Notes: generated from the letters alone by a model not told the origin. A stretch of DNA of 62,803 bases from Chloroflexota bacterium (GCA_016183425.1 JACPEP010000048.1:1-62803), one strand, 5' to 3'; positions 34,155-39,644 are shown, counted from the stretch's first letter. Translations and numbers: made by a program.

Positions 34155-35315
34155 TCAGAAGGTGAGCTTGGCCAGGCGGGCCAGCCCCTCCTCCATGCGG
34201 TCGTCGGGGATGGTGATGGAGAGGCGGATGTAGCCCTCCCCGGCGTGGCCGTAGCCCACGCCGGGGGTGACCACCACCCCCGCCTCCTCCAGGAGCTTGG
34301 TGGTGAAGGTGACAGAGGTGTAGCCAGGGGGCACCCTGACCCAGAGGTAGAGGCTGGCCTGGGAGGGCCGCACCCGAAGCCCCATGCCGTTGAAGGTCTC
34401 CACGATGCGGTCCCGCCGCCGCTGGTAGATGGCGTTGTGCTCCGGGATGCAGTCCTGGGGGCCCTCCAGGGCGGCGATGCCCGCCAGTTGGATGGCCTGG
34501 GGGATGCCCGAGTCCAGGTTGGACTTGACCCGCATCAGGGCATCCACCATAGTGGCGTTGCCCACCACCATCCCCACCCGCCACCCCGTCATGTGGTAGC
34601 TTTTGGACAGGGAGTGAAACTCCACCCCCACCTCCCGCGCCCCCTTGGCCTCCATGAAGCTCACCGGCCGGTAGCCATCGAAGGCCACCTCCGTGTAGGG
34701 ACCGTCGTGGCACACCGCCACGTCGTAGCGCTTGGCGAAGGCCACCGCCCGCTCAAAGAAGTCCAGATCAGCCACCCCGGCGGTGGGATTGTTGGGGTAG
34801 TTGAGCCACAGCAGCCGCGCCCGGTGAGCCACCGAGGGCGGGATAGCCTCCAGGTCGGGGAGAAAGTCCTTCTCCTCGGTAAGAGGCAGATAGTAGGGCT
34901 CGCCGCCGGCGAAGAGAGTACCTATAGAATACACGGGATACCCCGGGTCGGGCACCAGGGCCACATCCCCGGGGTCGATGAAGCAGAGGGCCATGTGGCC
35001 GATGCCCTCCTTGGAGCCGATGAGGGGCAGCACCTCCTTATCCGGGTGAAAGGTGAGGCCGAAGCGCATCTGGTACCAGGCGGCGATGGCCTGGCGGAAC
35101 TGGGGTAGGCCATCGGACTCCGGGTAGCGGTGGTTGGCCGGGTCCCGGGCCGCCTCACAGAGGCAGTCGATGACGTGATGCGGGGTGGGCAAATCCGGGT
35201 CGCCGATGGCAAAGCTGATGACATCTACCCCCTCCGCCCGCTTCTGGGCCATCTTGCGGGTTATGTCCACGAAGAGATAAGGGGGCAGCTTCTCGATGCG
35301 TTTGGAAAGGCGCAC
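34155..35315 (-). CDS. dapL: LL-diaminopimelate aminotransferase-type PLP enzyme
   Basis: A 386-residue fold type I aminotransferase. It has I-G-D-P-D-L-P-T-P near residue 37, H-R-Y-P-E-S near 65, N-Y-P-N-N-P-T near 175 and the PLP lysine in S-L-S-K-S-Y-H-M-T-G-W-R near 240. DapL turns tetrahydrodipicolinate directly into LL-diaminopimelate. dapF on the same strand upstream and dapA in the window support this assignment over a general aspartate aminotransferase. GTG 35315 follows AAGGAGTGATGCC; longer starts overlap the preceding gene. It is separated from the KAP NTPase gene by four bases. Confidence 0.88.
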   Translation of the reverse strand: MRLSKRIEKLPPYLFVDITRKMAQKRAEGVDVISFAIGDPDLPTPHHVIDCLCEAARDPANHRYPESDGLPQFRQAIAAWYQMRFGLTFHPDKEVLPLIGSKEGIGHMALCFIDPGDVALVPDPGYPVYSIGTLFAGGEPYYLPLTEEKDFLPDLEAIPPSVAHRARLLWLNYPNNPTAGVADLDFFERAVAFAKRYDVAVCHDGPYTEVAFDGYRPVSFMEAKGAREVGVEFHSLSKSYHMTGWRVGMVVGNATMVDALMRVKSNLDSGIPQAIQLAGIAALEGPQDCIPEHNAIYQRRRDRIVETFNGMGLRVRPSQASLYLWVRVPPGYTSVTFTTKLLEEAGVVVTPGVGYGHAGEGYIRLSITIPDDRMEEGLARLAKLTF

Positions 35316-35319
35316 GGCA

Positions 35320-37116
35320 TCACTCCTTGCTAGTCGTCTTTTCCTCACCGCGCCCAAAGCGACGCAGCAAGATCTCGAGAACCTCAGGGTCCCAGCGAGC
35401 CTCTCGCCAGCCCATGGTTTCCGACAAGTCTATAGTCTCAGGGTCAAAGATAGCCCCTGTCAAATTGGCGTACCTCAATTCGGCGCCCATCAAGTTGGTG
35501 TACCTCAAGTCGGCGCCCCCCAAGTTGGCGCCCCTCAAGTCGGCGCCCCCCAAGTTGGCGCCCCTCAAGTCGGCGCCCCCCAAGTCGGCGCCCCTCAAGT
35601 CGGCGCCCCCCAGGTGGGCGTCCCTCAAGTCGGCGCCCCCCAAGTCGGCGCCCCCCAGGTCGGCGCTCCCCAGGTCGGCGCCCCCCAGGTGGGCGTCCCT
35701 CAGGTTGGCGCCCCTCAGGTTGGCGCCCCTCAGGTTGCGGCCTTCGGCCACCGCCCGTTCCACCTCCTCCCTGGTCAGGGGCCGCCTTGCAACGGCGGGG
35801 GTCGGCTCCGGGGCAGCCAGGGCGGGGGGTGGAATGAGGTTCACACACAGGCGGATGTCTTCCAGGCTAAAGAAGAAGCCGCTGCTCTTGAGGACGGCCA
35901 TGAGCCGCTGGTTGGAGGCGAATTCAGTAAACTGCTTATTTTCAGGGTTGTTCAAAAGGTCTCTTTGCTCATCGCCTGTAGCGTCGGCTATTTTCTTCAT
36001 CATGGTGATTAAGCCCAGGCGTTCTTTGTCACTATTGGCTGCCTTCACCGCCGCCCGGAAGGTTGGGGCCACATCGGGATGGGCGAGCACCAGCCACTCC
36101 ACCAGCCGGGTCTTTTTGCTTGCATCTCTAGCGGCATCAGCAACCAACGCCCACTGCACCTCAACGTGGTTGAGGAAGGTCTTGATCTTGCGGGGGTTGG
36201 TGGGAATCCCCTGAATGATGAGCTTGAGGAGATTCTTCGTGGATTCGTCTACCTGAGCCAGAGCGCCCACGTATGCCTCCATGTCCGCCTGGCGGATGGG
36301 AGGCAAAGGAAAGCGCACCTGGACGATCTTCTCCATGTACTCATGGCCGTTGATGGTGCCCATCTGCTCCTTGGCATAGTAGCTTTGCACCGCATGGGCA
36401 ACGGTTTCCTCGGCGGCCCCCAGGACAAAAACGCAGTCCTGTTGATCCATAAAAAGCTTGATGGCCTCCAGCACTTGGACGGCCTTGTGGGGCAGGCACC
36501 GGTCCAGGTCATCGATGAAGACCACCAGTCGCCCCCCTTTTTTCTTATCTATGAAGTGGTCGCTGAGGGAGGCGAAGGCGCTGCGGAACTCGTCGTAGAA
36601 GGCGAGGTTTTTGCGAAAGCTGGACTCCCTCTCGAACTGAGAGGCATCGGGCACAATACTGCCCAGGGGGATGGAAACGAGGTTGCTTACAGCGCTGGCC
36701 ATGAACCCTGTCCAGTTGAACTCACCCTGCTTGGGGTCATCAAGCCAGGCGCGCACCTTACCGAGGAAGCCATCCTTCTCCATGGCCCGAAGCACCTCTT
36801 CCACCAGGGCCACGAAAAGCTCCTCATGTTTGGCGTACTTCCAGGCATTGAACCAGACCGTCTTGCAGGGGGCGAAATCCTTCGCTGGCTTCAGGCCCTC
36901 TTTCAGCTTTCCTTTGACCAGCCGCATGAGGCTGGTCTTGCCGCTGCCCCACTCGCCGTGGATGCCCACGGTCAGAGGAACCTGGGTGCCCGTGAAGGCG
37001 ATGAGGCGAGCCAGGCGGTCGGCGTACAGGTCAAACTGAAAGCCTGCTCCTGCTGCCTCGCCTTCACTCAGTTCCCTATCTGAGAACACTTTAGGGACAT
37101 AGGGCTGGGTCACCAT
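35320..37116 (-). CDS. KAP-family P-loop NTPase with C-terminal pentapeptide repeats
   Basis: A 598-residue protein. Residues 1-450 form a KAP NTPase: Walker [10 protein letters not shown] (54-62) and Walker [12 protein letters not shown] (near 215). Residues about 461-556 are 19 tandem pentapeptides of form A-(D/N)-L-x-G, which would build a right-handed beta helix. A 42-residue tail follows. KAP NTPases are often found in mobile or defence settings and many are membrane-bound; only a weak hydrophobic stretch near residue 130-145 is seen. ATG 37116 follows GGGGGAGTGGCT; ATG 37158 is an alternative that overlaps the DUF433 gene. It is placed between two lysine genes and reads as an insertion. 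Confidence 0.9.
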
Positions 37117-37154
37117 AGCCACTCCCCCTGGAATACCGTCTCCGCCGGATCCGC

Positions 37155-37391
37155 TCATTGATGCTCGGCTCTACGGATGCGTGCCCTGCCGGAAACCAGC
37201 TTCAGGGCGTAGTTCAGGGCAGCAATAATATCGTCCTTAGTTATGCCATATTCGGCCACGATCTCTTCGAAGCTTGTTCCCCCTACCAGCGCTCCTAGAA
37301 CGGTCTCTACTGGCACCCTGGTGCCCTTGATGACCGGCTTGCCGAAATGGATGTCCTTGTCCGCCACGATCCCGGGTACTATCTCGACCAT
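37155..37391 (-). CDS. DUF433 antitoxin-like protein
   Basis: A 78-residue DUF433 protein: [25 protein letters not shown] and a helix-turn-helix near 45-65 ([13 protein letters not shown]). Such proteins usually act as antitoxins beside PIN-domain (DUF5615) toxins. No such toxin is adjacent here; its stop region overlaps the possible ATG 37158 of the KAP gene. It may regulate or neutralise the KAP protein. AAAGAGAG precedes the ATG. Confidence 0.87.
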
Positions 37392-37474
37392 CTCTCTTTA
37401 CCCTGGCTCATATCACCCACTTCCCCTGAAAAACCATCTTCTCCAGGCCACAATACCCGGCAAACAGCGATAGC

Positions 37475-37723
37475 CTACGGCACGGCAACCATCTCAAAGT
37501 CGTAGATGGTAAACTCGGCACGCTTTCCTGGTAGCGCATCTCCCTTTACCCTCTTGGTGATGTCCAAGAGCCTTTGGGTCACCTCTGGTGTATAGTAACG
37601 CTCTCCACATTTGGTACAGACCTCGGCAGGAACGTTCTCTACCGCAAGGTAAAGTCCCTTTTCGGCATAAAGGTCGGCCACAACTCTGGACTCAGTCTCA
37701 CCACTACACACGAAACACTTCAT
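37475..37723 (-). CDS. YgiT-type zinc-finger protein (MqsA N-domain-like)
   Basis: An 82-residue protein with C-F-V-C (3-6) and C-T-K-C-G-E-R-Y-Y-T-P-E (about 37-48), the pair of zinc knuckles of YgiT-type antitoxins. Usually a DUF4258 toxin gene precedes it; here dapF ends three bases upstream instead. It therefore looks like an orphan antitoxin that has joined the dapF operon. Another 83 bases separate it from the DUF433 gene. Confidence 0.87.
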   Translation of the reverse strand: MKCFVCSGETESRVVADLYAEKGLYLAVENVPAEVCTKCGERYYTPEVTQRLLDITKRVKGDALPGKRAEFTIYDFEMVAVP

Positions 37724-37726
37724 AGG

Positions 37727-38566
37727 TCATCCTATCCACTCTCCCTCAAAGACCGTCTCCGCCGGGCCGGTGAGGAACACCTCTTCTCGCCCATCCCAGG
37801 CCACCATGACCACGCCCCCGGGCAGGGCTATCTGGACTTCATTTCCCACCAGGCCCTTGAGGCGGGCGGCCACGGCCACAGCACAAGCGCCGCTGCCACA
37901 GCCCAGGGTCTCTCCGGCCCCCCGTTCCCATACCCTCATCATCGCCCTGCCCTGGTCAACTATATTAACTACCTCGAAGTTGACGCGGTTGGGGAAGGCG
38001 GGGTGTCTTTCCACCGCCGGACCCACCTGGGCCAGAGGGAAATCCGCCACCGGCGATTCCGGGAAGGCCACGGCGTGAGGGTTTCCCATAGAGAGGCAGG
38101 CCACCTTCAGCCCCATGCCGCCGGCCATAAGGGGGTAATCAAGCACCGGCCCCGCTTCAGGGACATCGACAGCCATAGGTATATCTCTGGGCGCAAATTG
38201 GGGCGCTCCCAGGCTCACCCGCACCGCCACCTGGCCCTTTTCAGTGAAAAGTTTAGCCCGACGGAGGCCGGCCTGGGTGGCTATGAGTAGCTCCCCGTTC
38301 CTTGGGGTCACCAGCCCCCTTTCCACAGCGTATCGGGCCACACAGCGAAGACCGTTGCCGCAGGCCTCGGCCTCGGAGCCATCGGGGTTGAACACTCGCA
38401 TGGCCACGTCGGCATCGGTGACGGGGGAGACCACCAGCAGCCCGTCAGCACCCACCCCGAAATGGCGGTGACACACGGCGCGAGCCAGGGAAGCCCAGTC
38501 CTGCTCTTGGATGGCCTGCACCACCACGAAGTCGTTGCCTACGGCCTGCATCTTGGTAAAGCGCAT
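37727..38566 (-). CDS. dapF: diaminopimelate epimerase
   Basis: A 279-residue enzyme that converts LL- to meso-diaminopimelate. The two catalytic cysteines are in E-A-C-G-N-G (near residue 74) and L-G-C-G-S-G-A-C-A (near 224). The start K-M-Q-A-V-G-N-D-F-V-V and G-N-P-H-A-V are also typical. A well-formed promoter lies 30-57 bases upstream. It is the first gene of a minus-strand operon with YgiT, DUF433, KAP NTPase and dapL. Confidence 0.95.
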   Translation of the reverse strand: MRFTKMQAVGNDFVVVQAIQEQDWASLARAVCHRHFGVGADGLLVVSPVTDADVAMRVFNPDGSEAEACGNGLRCVARYAVERGLVTPRNGELLIATQAGLRRAKLFTEKGQVAVRVSLGAPQFAPRDIPMAVDVPEAGPVLDYPLMAGGMGLKVACLSMGNPHAVAFPESPVADFPLAQVGPAVERHPAFPNRVNFEVVNIVDQGRAMMRVWERGAGETLGCGSGACAVAVAARLKGLVGNEVQIALPGGVVMVAWDGREEVFLTGPAETVFEGEWIG

Positions 38567-38595: not shown

Positions 38596-38623
38596 ATTAT
38601 AGCATTCCTTTTTTCGGTATCAA
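38596..38623 (-). promoter_or_regulatory. sigma70-type promoter of the dapF operon
   Basis: On the minus strand, TTGATA (38618-38623), a 16-base spacer and a perfect TATAAT (38596-38601), 30 bases before the dapF start. Confidence 0.65.
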
Positions 38624-38728: not shown

Positions 38729-39400
38729 ATGGTGAGCATTCCTGGTATTGTGACACTTCCGCCCATTCCAACAGGACATATTAAGGGTGTTGGCCTAGCT
38801 AAAACCGCCGAACAAGAATTGCGCAGACAGTTCATCGAGCTGTTTCAACCCCTCGCTTTGACAAAGGCACAGAGGACGCTCGAAGCAGAACTAAACAAGA
38901 GAACACAGGAATACCTGCATCTGCTAAGTGGAGTACAGCGTCTAATAAATGCCTACGTGCCTGAAGCACGCCTCGTGCCTTTTGTATTGCAGTCGTTTGA
39001 AGAGGCTTCGTATCTCGTAACGATAAATGCCGAGATATTGGGTTCCAGAGAAAGGCAAATTCTTTTACTTGTACTAGATGACCTAAGGGAACTGTTAGAG
39101 GCCAGCATTGAAAATTTACGTAGGGATCCCGGGAGCCTCATAAATGTTCTGCTTGAATGCGCCATTCCATTGCTCAAAGGTAACATGTGCCTCTTTACAG
39201 TGTTGCTCGTTCTAGAGAAGGAAGTCAAGCTCTGGGATGGCGCCTCTATCAAACTCCTTTGTCATATGGCCAGTAAGTACATGGGTGAGGTAGAAGACGT
39301 CTTTCTTGCCCACAATAAGGAACTCGGCAGAAGACTGGACACAAGTTCACCAACCATAAGCATCGATATGGTAAAGCAAGAGCTTAAACTATCAGGTTGA
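38729..39400 (+). CDS. unrecognised 223-residue protein
   Basis: I do not recognise this family. The sequence is largely helical, with leucine-rich stretches and a Q-R-T-L-E-A-E-L-N-K-R-T-Q-E-Y-L segment near residue 48 that may be a short coiled coil. No signal peptide or transmembrane segment is evident. Base composition is lower in GC than the flanking chromosomal genes, so it is probably acquired. Its end overlaps the upstream part of a RelE-like frame, suggesting one locus. ATG 38729 has only a weak AAAAGAGA upstream. A candidate promoter TTGACG-17-TAGTCT lies at 38667-38695. Confidence 0.65.
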   Translation: MVSIPGIVTLPPIPTGHIKGVGLAKTAEQELRRQFIELFQPLALTKAQRTLEAELNKRTQEYLHLLSGVQRLINAYVPEARLVPFVLQSFEEASYLVTINAEILGSRERQILLLVLDDLRELLEASIENLRRDPGSLINVLLECAIPLLKGNMCLFTVLLVLEKEVKLWDGASIKLLCHMASKYMGEVEDVFLAHNKELGRRLDTSSPTISIDMVKQELKLSG

Positions 39401-39644
39401 ATTTGATAGACGAGCCAACAAGGATTTGGAGAGGCTGGACTCCCAAGCCAGAAAGCGTGTTATCCGAAAATGCTCACTCTTAGGTAAAAACCCTCTTAGG
39501 GGCTCGAACATCCGTCGTCTTGGAGGGTATGAAAATCTCTACAGAATTCGGATCGGTGACTGGCGTGTGGTTTACATTGTTGAGGGCAACGTCGTTATTG
39601 TCAAATATATTGGTCATCGCAAGGAGATCTATCGAAATATATAA
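39375..39644 (+). pseudogene. RelE/ParE-type toxin frame without a normal start
   Basis: The open frame from 39375 to 39644 reads Y-Q-V-E-F-D-R-R-A-N-K-D-L-E-R-L and ends G-D-W-R-V-V-Y-I-V-E-G-N-V-V-I-V-K-Y-I-G-H-R-K-E-I-Y, a clear RelE-superfamily mRNA interferase with the R-I-G-D-W-R-V and H-R-K-E-I-Y motifs. The only standard start is TTG 39426, which would remove the first strand and part of helix 1. The complete N-terminus lies inside the end of the preceding gene in another frame. It could be a decayed toxin, use a rare start codon or be made by frameshifting. No antitoxin gene is recognisable. Confidence 0.72.

Follow-up and report, generated by a model that had tools for sequence, protein, structure and literature searches.

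A KAP NTPase with a C-terminal pentapeptide helix between dapF and dapL, and its possible origin by capture of a resident gene

Tmn, a member of the KAP family of NTPases, acts against phages (PMC11846954). QatA has been reported to form a 7-8-mer that binds DNA and contributes to the range of Qat defence (PMC13279940), and KAP NTPases that carry lectin-like/FGE domains have been described as putative antigen sensors, some of them diversified by retroelements (PMC10907252). Here, we describe a KAP NTPase of a Chloroflexota bacterium that has a pentapeptide-repeat beta-helix in place of such a domain and whose gene lies between dapF and dapL. The stretch of DNA that we analysed, called the window (62,803 nucleotides; GCA_016183425.1 JACPEP010000048.1:1-62803), is a complete contig (C24) of a 2.7 Mb genome assembled in 52 contigs. 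The relatives of this genome available for comparison belong only to its class or phylum.

Gene order and the KAP-pentapeptide protein

On the minus strand, dapF is followed codirectionally by genes for a YgiT-type protein, a DUF433 protein and the KAP-pentapeptide protein, and then by dapL (Table 1). Three bases separate dapF from the YgiT-type gene and 83 bases separate the latter from the DUF433 gene; the longest KAP ORF overlaps the DUF433 gene by 4 bases and ends 4 bases short of dapL, whose Shine-Dalgarno sequence AAGGAG, as read from the sequence, sits within the 3' end of the KAP gene. A sigma-70-like promoter lies 30 bases upstream of dapF, and a search of the minus strand inside the gene group for a second strong promoter found none. 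Judging by this anatomy and by the promoter consensus, dapF, the small genes, the KAP gene and dapL look cotranscribed. Given a family match for each of the genes and their tight codirectional order, we take the arrangement to be more than a set of chance ORFs. The YgiT-DUF433-KAP trio was found between dapF and dapL in one genome, represented by one assembly. An earlier sequence-only reading had named these three genes between dapF and dapL, counted 19 repeats in the KAP protein, gave the successive spacings as 3 and 83 bases, an overlap of 4 bases or a short gap, and 4 bases, and placed the group under the dapF promoter. ORFs and family cut-offs bear out the genes, the repeat count and the spacings are exact, and a single strong site does precede dapF.

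Table 1. Features of the dapF-dapL region in window coordinates.
Feature	Coordinates	Strand	Basis
Insert between miaA and dapF: 223-aa protein without a family and ParE/RelE-like ORF	38729..39644	+	
Promoter-like site TTGATA-16-TATAAT, TG-extended -10	38596..38623	-	11/12 consensus matches
dapF, diaminopimelate epimerase	37727..38566	-	TIGR00652, 273 bits (cut-off 114.65)
YgiT-type zinc-finger protein, 82 aa	37475..37723	-	TIGR03831, 46.2 bits (cut-off 20.2)
DUF433 protein, 78 aa	37155..37391	-	PF04255, 73.6 bits (cut-off 23.6)
KAP NTPase-pentapeptide fusion protein, 612 aa	35320..37158	-	ORF and family matches
KAP P-loop NTPase domain, residues 42-334	36157..37035	-	PF07693, 139.8 bits (cut-off 20)
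Pentapeptide beta-helix, residues 472-571, 19 repeats	35446..35745	-	PF00805, 99.2 bits (cut-off 20.2); pLDDT 95-98
C-terminal cap/tail of the pentapeptide domain, residues 564-602	35353..35469	-	homologous to the tail of the f19 dapF-dapL protein
dapL, LL-diaminopimelate aminotransferase, GTG start at 35315	34155..35315	-	TIGR03540, 601.5 bits (cut-off 593.25)

The Walker A and B motifs of the KAP domain are intact, and both GEWGSGKTS and FIDDLDRC are conserved in our alignment A1. PF00805 proteins are expected to have eight or more repeats in a row; the window protein has 19, from NLRGA to NLTGA. In the predicted structure (mean pLDDT 85), the NTPase core is followed by a disordered linker (residues 447-457), a leader helix (463-471) and then the beta-helix, with a cap helix at 591-601. 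Its closest solved folds are pentapeptide proteins and the RdrA ring, and the sequence matches among solved structures were confined to pentapeptide entries and one entry with a pentapeptide-like stretch. Many KAP NTPases have transmembrane helices inserted in the P-loop domain; here, the most hydrophobic stretch, residues 151-169, is weak (Kyte-Doolittle mean 1.49), and most of it lies where the confidence of the model is low.

An internal Met near residue 15 (AGGGGGAGTGGCTATG) is more likely to be the KAP start than the upstream start, because AGGGGGAG lies a few bases before the internal ATG, residues 1-13 are unstructured in the predicted model, and the N-termini of KAP relatives align downstream of these residues. 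With this start, the DUF433 and KAP genes would not overlap but would be separated by a gap of ~40 bases.

A second insert lies between miaA and dapF, with a GC content of 0.44-0.46 compared with 0.59-0.65 in miaA and dapF. The conserved N-terminus of its ParE/RelE-like ORF, LNYQVEFDRRANKDLERLD, is in frame, and no ATG, GTG or TTG precedes the TTG at 39426; the ORF may thus be damaged at its 5' end.

The YgiT-type and DUF433 genes

DUF433-DUF5615 and YgiT-DUF4258 pairs are type II modules, of which the antitoxin-type halves are present here and the toxin halves are missing at the locus. We searched the locus for a toxin gene adjacent to the YgiT-type gene and for a PIN-like DUF5615 toxin adjacent to the DUF433 gene, and both were absent. 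The genome as a whole encodes five DUF433 and six YgiT-type genes. Each of the other four DUF433 genes abuts a DUF5615 gene, and DUF4258 abuts two of the five other YgiT genes. The two copies in the window are local orphans, as the sequence-only reading had said in calling them antitoxin-type proteins without their usual toxins; neither DUF5615 nor any other toxin adjoins them. MqsA/YgiT antitoxins combine a zinc finger with a C-terminal HTH and lie beside a toxin gene, whereas the YgiT-type protein of the window is a zinc finger that lacks an HTH and an adjacent toxin and falls under the cut-off of the MqsA profile PF15731 (27.6 vs 30).

The same reading had proposed that the YgiT and DUF433 proteins may control the NTPase in an undescribed conflict system, wired to lysine synthesis so that loss of the operon is costly. 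In such a system, the two proteins would repress or neutralise the KAP-pentapeptide protein, and coupling to dapF and dapL would penalise loss. The tight spacing, the common promoter, the orphan state of both antitoxins and the presence of a conflict-type NTPase are all consistent with this idea, and solo antitoxin homologues have been proposed to be recruited, in some cases, to regulate other operons (PMC2701414). However, neither the trio nor an orphan DUF433 or YgiT gene with KAP ever recurs in the loci that we examined, an outcome that the reading itself had named as grounds for its refutation. These were 92 KAP loci found in viral contigs and in 84,980 genomes, to which sampling of the class and phylum added loci of ~650 genomes. 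Recurrence was sought by BLAST and with HMMs built from the genome's own DUF433 and YgiT copies. No KAP locus had an orphan DUF433 or a YgiT gene nearby, and DUF433 occurred near KAP solely in complete DUF433-DUF5615 pairs, at two loci. The trio is thus private to the window genome within the collections searched, a result whose reach is limited because the closest KAP copy on record has ~48% identity or less. The missing HTH of the YgiT copy also argues against the three-gene system, and with five DUF433 and six YgiT genes in the genome, proximity of such genes to any other comes cheap. We therefore give a three-gene system little credence. What survives of the proposal is the NTPase, which falls in a modular KAP clade of conflict type; control of the NTPase by YgiT and DUF433 found no comparative support. 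Most likely, the two small genes are carried along as passengers, or autoregulate the operon at most, and do not form the antitoxin half of a pair, and the tempting toxin-antitoxin reading of the locus is corrected here as unsupported.

Relatives of the NTPase and of the pentapeptide domain

Near copies of the window KAP were found neither among 84,980 genomes nor in viral contigs, and none on record exceeds ~48% identity. In our phylum sample, the NTPase part is 35-39% identical to its nearest relatives, and a profile scan that returned 80 KAP loci from many phyla gave a nearest full-length relative at ~39% identity. One relative on a viral contig also has 39% identity, while plasmid and phage relatives are below 60% (~24-31% among the matches listed). 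The 65 full-length KAPs that we compared, counting that of the window, differ widely in their C-termini: 36 are FGE-sulfatase/lectin-like, five HEAT, five pentapeptide and three TPR. One further relative ends in TIR and another in sigma-70 region 4. In the tree of KAP cores, the window protein falls in a clade of 15 (support 100/99) together with FGE-, TIR- and sigma-bearing KAPs. By its sequence, the window core belongs to a modular clade with swapped C-termini, and a conflict-type nature of this KAP NTPase is plausible.

Individual relatives show the variety of partners. Viral contig IMGVR_UViG_3300031539_009070 (L252, 985-2679) encodes a KAP NTPase-sigma-70 region 4 fusion that is 39% identical to the window KAP, and a TIR domain forms the C-terminus of a KAP NTPase in genome G351 (L115, 3398-5227). 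On Acaryochloris marina plasmid pREC4 (L281, 3917-5862), a KAP NTPase gene is followed by a separate pentapeptide-repeat gene, possibly an unfused counterpart of the architecture described here. The literature on KAP NTPases with pentapeptide repeats yielded a plasmid-related match.

None of the other four KAP-pentapeptide proteins (L173, L174, L194 and L232) falls in the 100/99 clade of the window, and the starred branches of the KAP tree require four changes of the pentapeptide label. A common origin of all five was rejected (p-AU 2e-60), while a grouping of the window with L173 was not (p-AU 0.15).

The relatives in the class keep the gene order tpiA-miaA-dapF-dapL, for the most part with dapF and dapL adjacent. 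In one family of the same class (f19), we found a free-standing pentapeptide protein of ~140 aa encoded between dapF and dapL. The arrangement dapF-pentapeptide-dapL is present in 11 f19 genomes and in one more that is cut at a contig end, and the slot gene was found in all seven high-quality genomes (7/7) and all nine genera (9/9). Its dN/dS of ~0.06-0.20 indicates purifying selection. Our searches found no paper that names this protein, and the literature on pentapeptide proteins with dapF held nothing relevant; an apparently unnamed and strongly conserved gene of the whole family is thereby brought to light. In genomes of other families, other single genes are inserted between dapF and dapL, namely in G033 (L056, 3650-4021; 123 aa) and G027 (L045, 2372-2896; 174 aa).

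A pentapeptide protein in this position, free or fused to KAP, could simply serve DAP/lysine synthesis or the envelope, with the NTPase as an accessory. Its fixed place between dapF and dapL and the strong purifying selection in f19 fit such a housekeeping role, yet most genomes of the class have dapF and dapL without a pentapeptide gene, and the KAP clade is sporadic and shuffles its domains, as conflict systems do; we see hardly any likelihood in this explanation. The suggestion of the sequence-only reading that the NTPase is wired to lysine synthesis is weakened by the pentapeptide gene that, in another family, was already present in the slot and offers a simpler reason for the position.

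The alignment of the KAP C-terminus to its closest f19 counterparts covers 131 of 131 residues (of a 131-136 aa domain), cap included, at 47-49% identity and with one 5-aa gap. Because repeats inflate identity, we tested the non-repeat cap alone. An HMM built from f19 tails only recovered the window cap with an i-E of 2e-9 and a protein of G105 with 1.4e-6, while the other pentapeptide proteins of the set reached values no better than 0.8. A second cap model (A2), which includes the window sequence, matched 12 f19 genomes and the window among 393 class genomes, all in the dapF-dapL slot, and beyond these only G105, at another location, and a 13-residue fragment in G111; the cap model matched no further genome in the 370-genome phylum sample. 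The G105 protein (L155, 1021-1845) has 274 aa; its N-terminal region is hydrophobic, it also has a pentapeptide helix and a window-type cap, and it is not encoded near dapF. Since the cap, the length and the slot are common to the window and f19, common descent of the pentapeptide part is likely.

Together with the KAP tree, this shared descent favours capture of the resident gene by an incoming NTPase, that is, a KAP NTPase would have entered the dapF-dapL operon and taken up the pentapeptide protein residing there as its own C-terminal domain; we hold this to be somewhat better than an even bet. In the dapF and dapL trees, the window groups with G034 (88/84 in the dapL tree) and not with f19, and the dapF-dapL junction of G034 is empty; capture therefore requires that the resident gene was lost in relatives or was transferred. 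Transfer of the entire dapF-pentapeptide-dapL block from f19 is unsupported given this grouping. Homology of the leader helix to the f19 N-terminus (EEV...EGRNL) was also considered and set aside, as EEV is probably a Shine-Dalgarno sequence read in frame.

A KAP-pentapeptide protein might instead have been inserted ready-made between dapF and dapL, the f19 gene being a coincidence or a decayed C-terminal remnant. Such fusions occur elsewhere (L173, L174, L194 and L232), and the architecture has arisen several times. L173 is tolerated as the sister of the window protein by the test given above, and its pentapeptide-domain match of 101 bits is comparable to those of the G105 protein (111 bits) and the f19 proteins (88-109 bits). 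The window linker resembles PLTREKVEEIIRKG of L174, and f19 proteins begin right after the position of the leader helix. What speaks against arrival of a complete fusion is that no other pentapeptide protein shares the well-supported clade of the window core; that few genomes of the class have an f19-type cap, which is confined to the slot except for G105 and the fragmentary match; and that, unlike a decaying remnant, the f19 gene shows purifying selection in all nine genera. Ready-made insertion thus appears unlikely, though it deserves to be taken seriously. If capture on site is correct, the locus would be a traceable case in which a conflict-type NTPase gained a C-terminal domain and the probable donor still stands alone in the same slot in another family.

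A proposed course of events and comparison with known systems

Capture on site would have proceeded from an ancestral tpiA-miaA-dapF-dapL order, with, in some lineages, a small pentapeptide-repeat gene standing by itself between dapF and dapL. Preceded by two orphan antitoxin-type genes, a KAP NTPase from the Chloroflexota clade that bears lectin/FGE domains would then have lodged after dapF. Its C-terminal domain would have been replaced by the resident pentapeptide protein to give a single KAP-pentapeptide polypeptide, whose expression would presumably start at the dapF promoter and be coupled to that of dapL. By analogy with RdrA and QatA, the KAP core probably forms an NTP-driven, NTP-hydrolysing oligomer. 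The pentapeptide beta-helix would occupy the place of the lectin-like, HEAT and TPR domains of relatives, providing the surface for binding or recognition by which the NTPase is switched; because the C-terminus varies within the clade, this position is likely to be a surface for recognition or scaffolding. We infer the direction of the fusion, the oligomerisation and the role in defence from these comparisons. A more speculative version, which we regard as a long shot, likens the protein to the integrated decoys of plant immune receptors: the defence-type KAP NTPase would have captured on site, as its sensor domain, a housekeeping pentapeptide protein resident in the dapF-dapL operon, and an invader acting on the partner of the free protein would trip the NTPase.

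Like the KAP P-loop NTPases of PF07693 (Tmn, PifA), the window protein has a KAP domain above the cut-off with intact Walker motifs; it differs in that no clear transmembrane pair stands out in its sequence, that it ends in a pentapeptide helix and that it is encoded in an operon with dap genes. The best PADLOC matches were QatA (the top match, 128.9 bits), PDC-S20 and PifA, all of them partial. On the curated QatA model, the window protein reaches 150.9 bits where the cut-off is 600, it has a different C-terminus, and qatB, qatC and qatD are absent beside its gene, where the neighbours are dapF, YgiT, DUF433 and dapL. RdrA of RADAR (8hr8, a heptameric ring) is the closest solved structure that spans the NTPase core, at a TM-score of only ~0.35-0.39, and no rdrB adjoins the window KAP gene. 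The KAP-FGE sensors belong to the same KAP clade (36 of 65 relatives are FGE/C-type-lectin proteins), with the pentapeptide helix of the window protein in the position of the lectin-like domain. The free-standing f19 protein is collinear with that helix over its full length, in the same slot and with a common cap, but is not fused to an NTPase. The window protein falls below the curated cut-offs for the gyrase-protection proteins Qnr and MfpA (MfpA 51.4 vs 360; Qnr 26 vs 240). Finally, the protein is not counted among the STAND/NLR-like NTPases, as it stays under the Pfam cut-off (nSTAND_NTPase5, 13.9 bits vs 34); nevertheless, the combination of one NTPase core with exchangeable C-termini (FGE, HEAT, TPR, TIR, sigma-r4 and pentapeptide) suggests, by analogy, a STAND-like mode of action.
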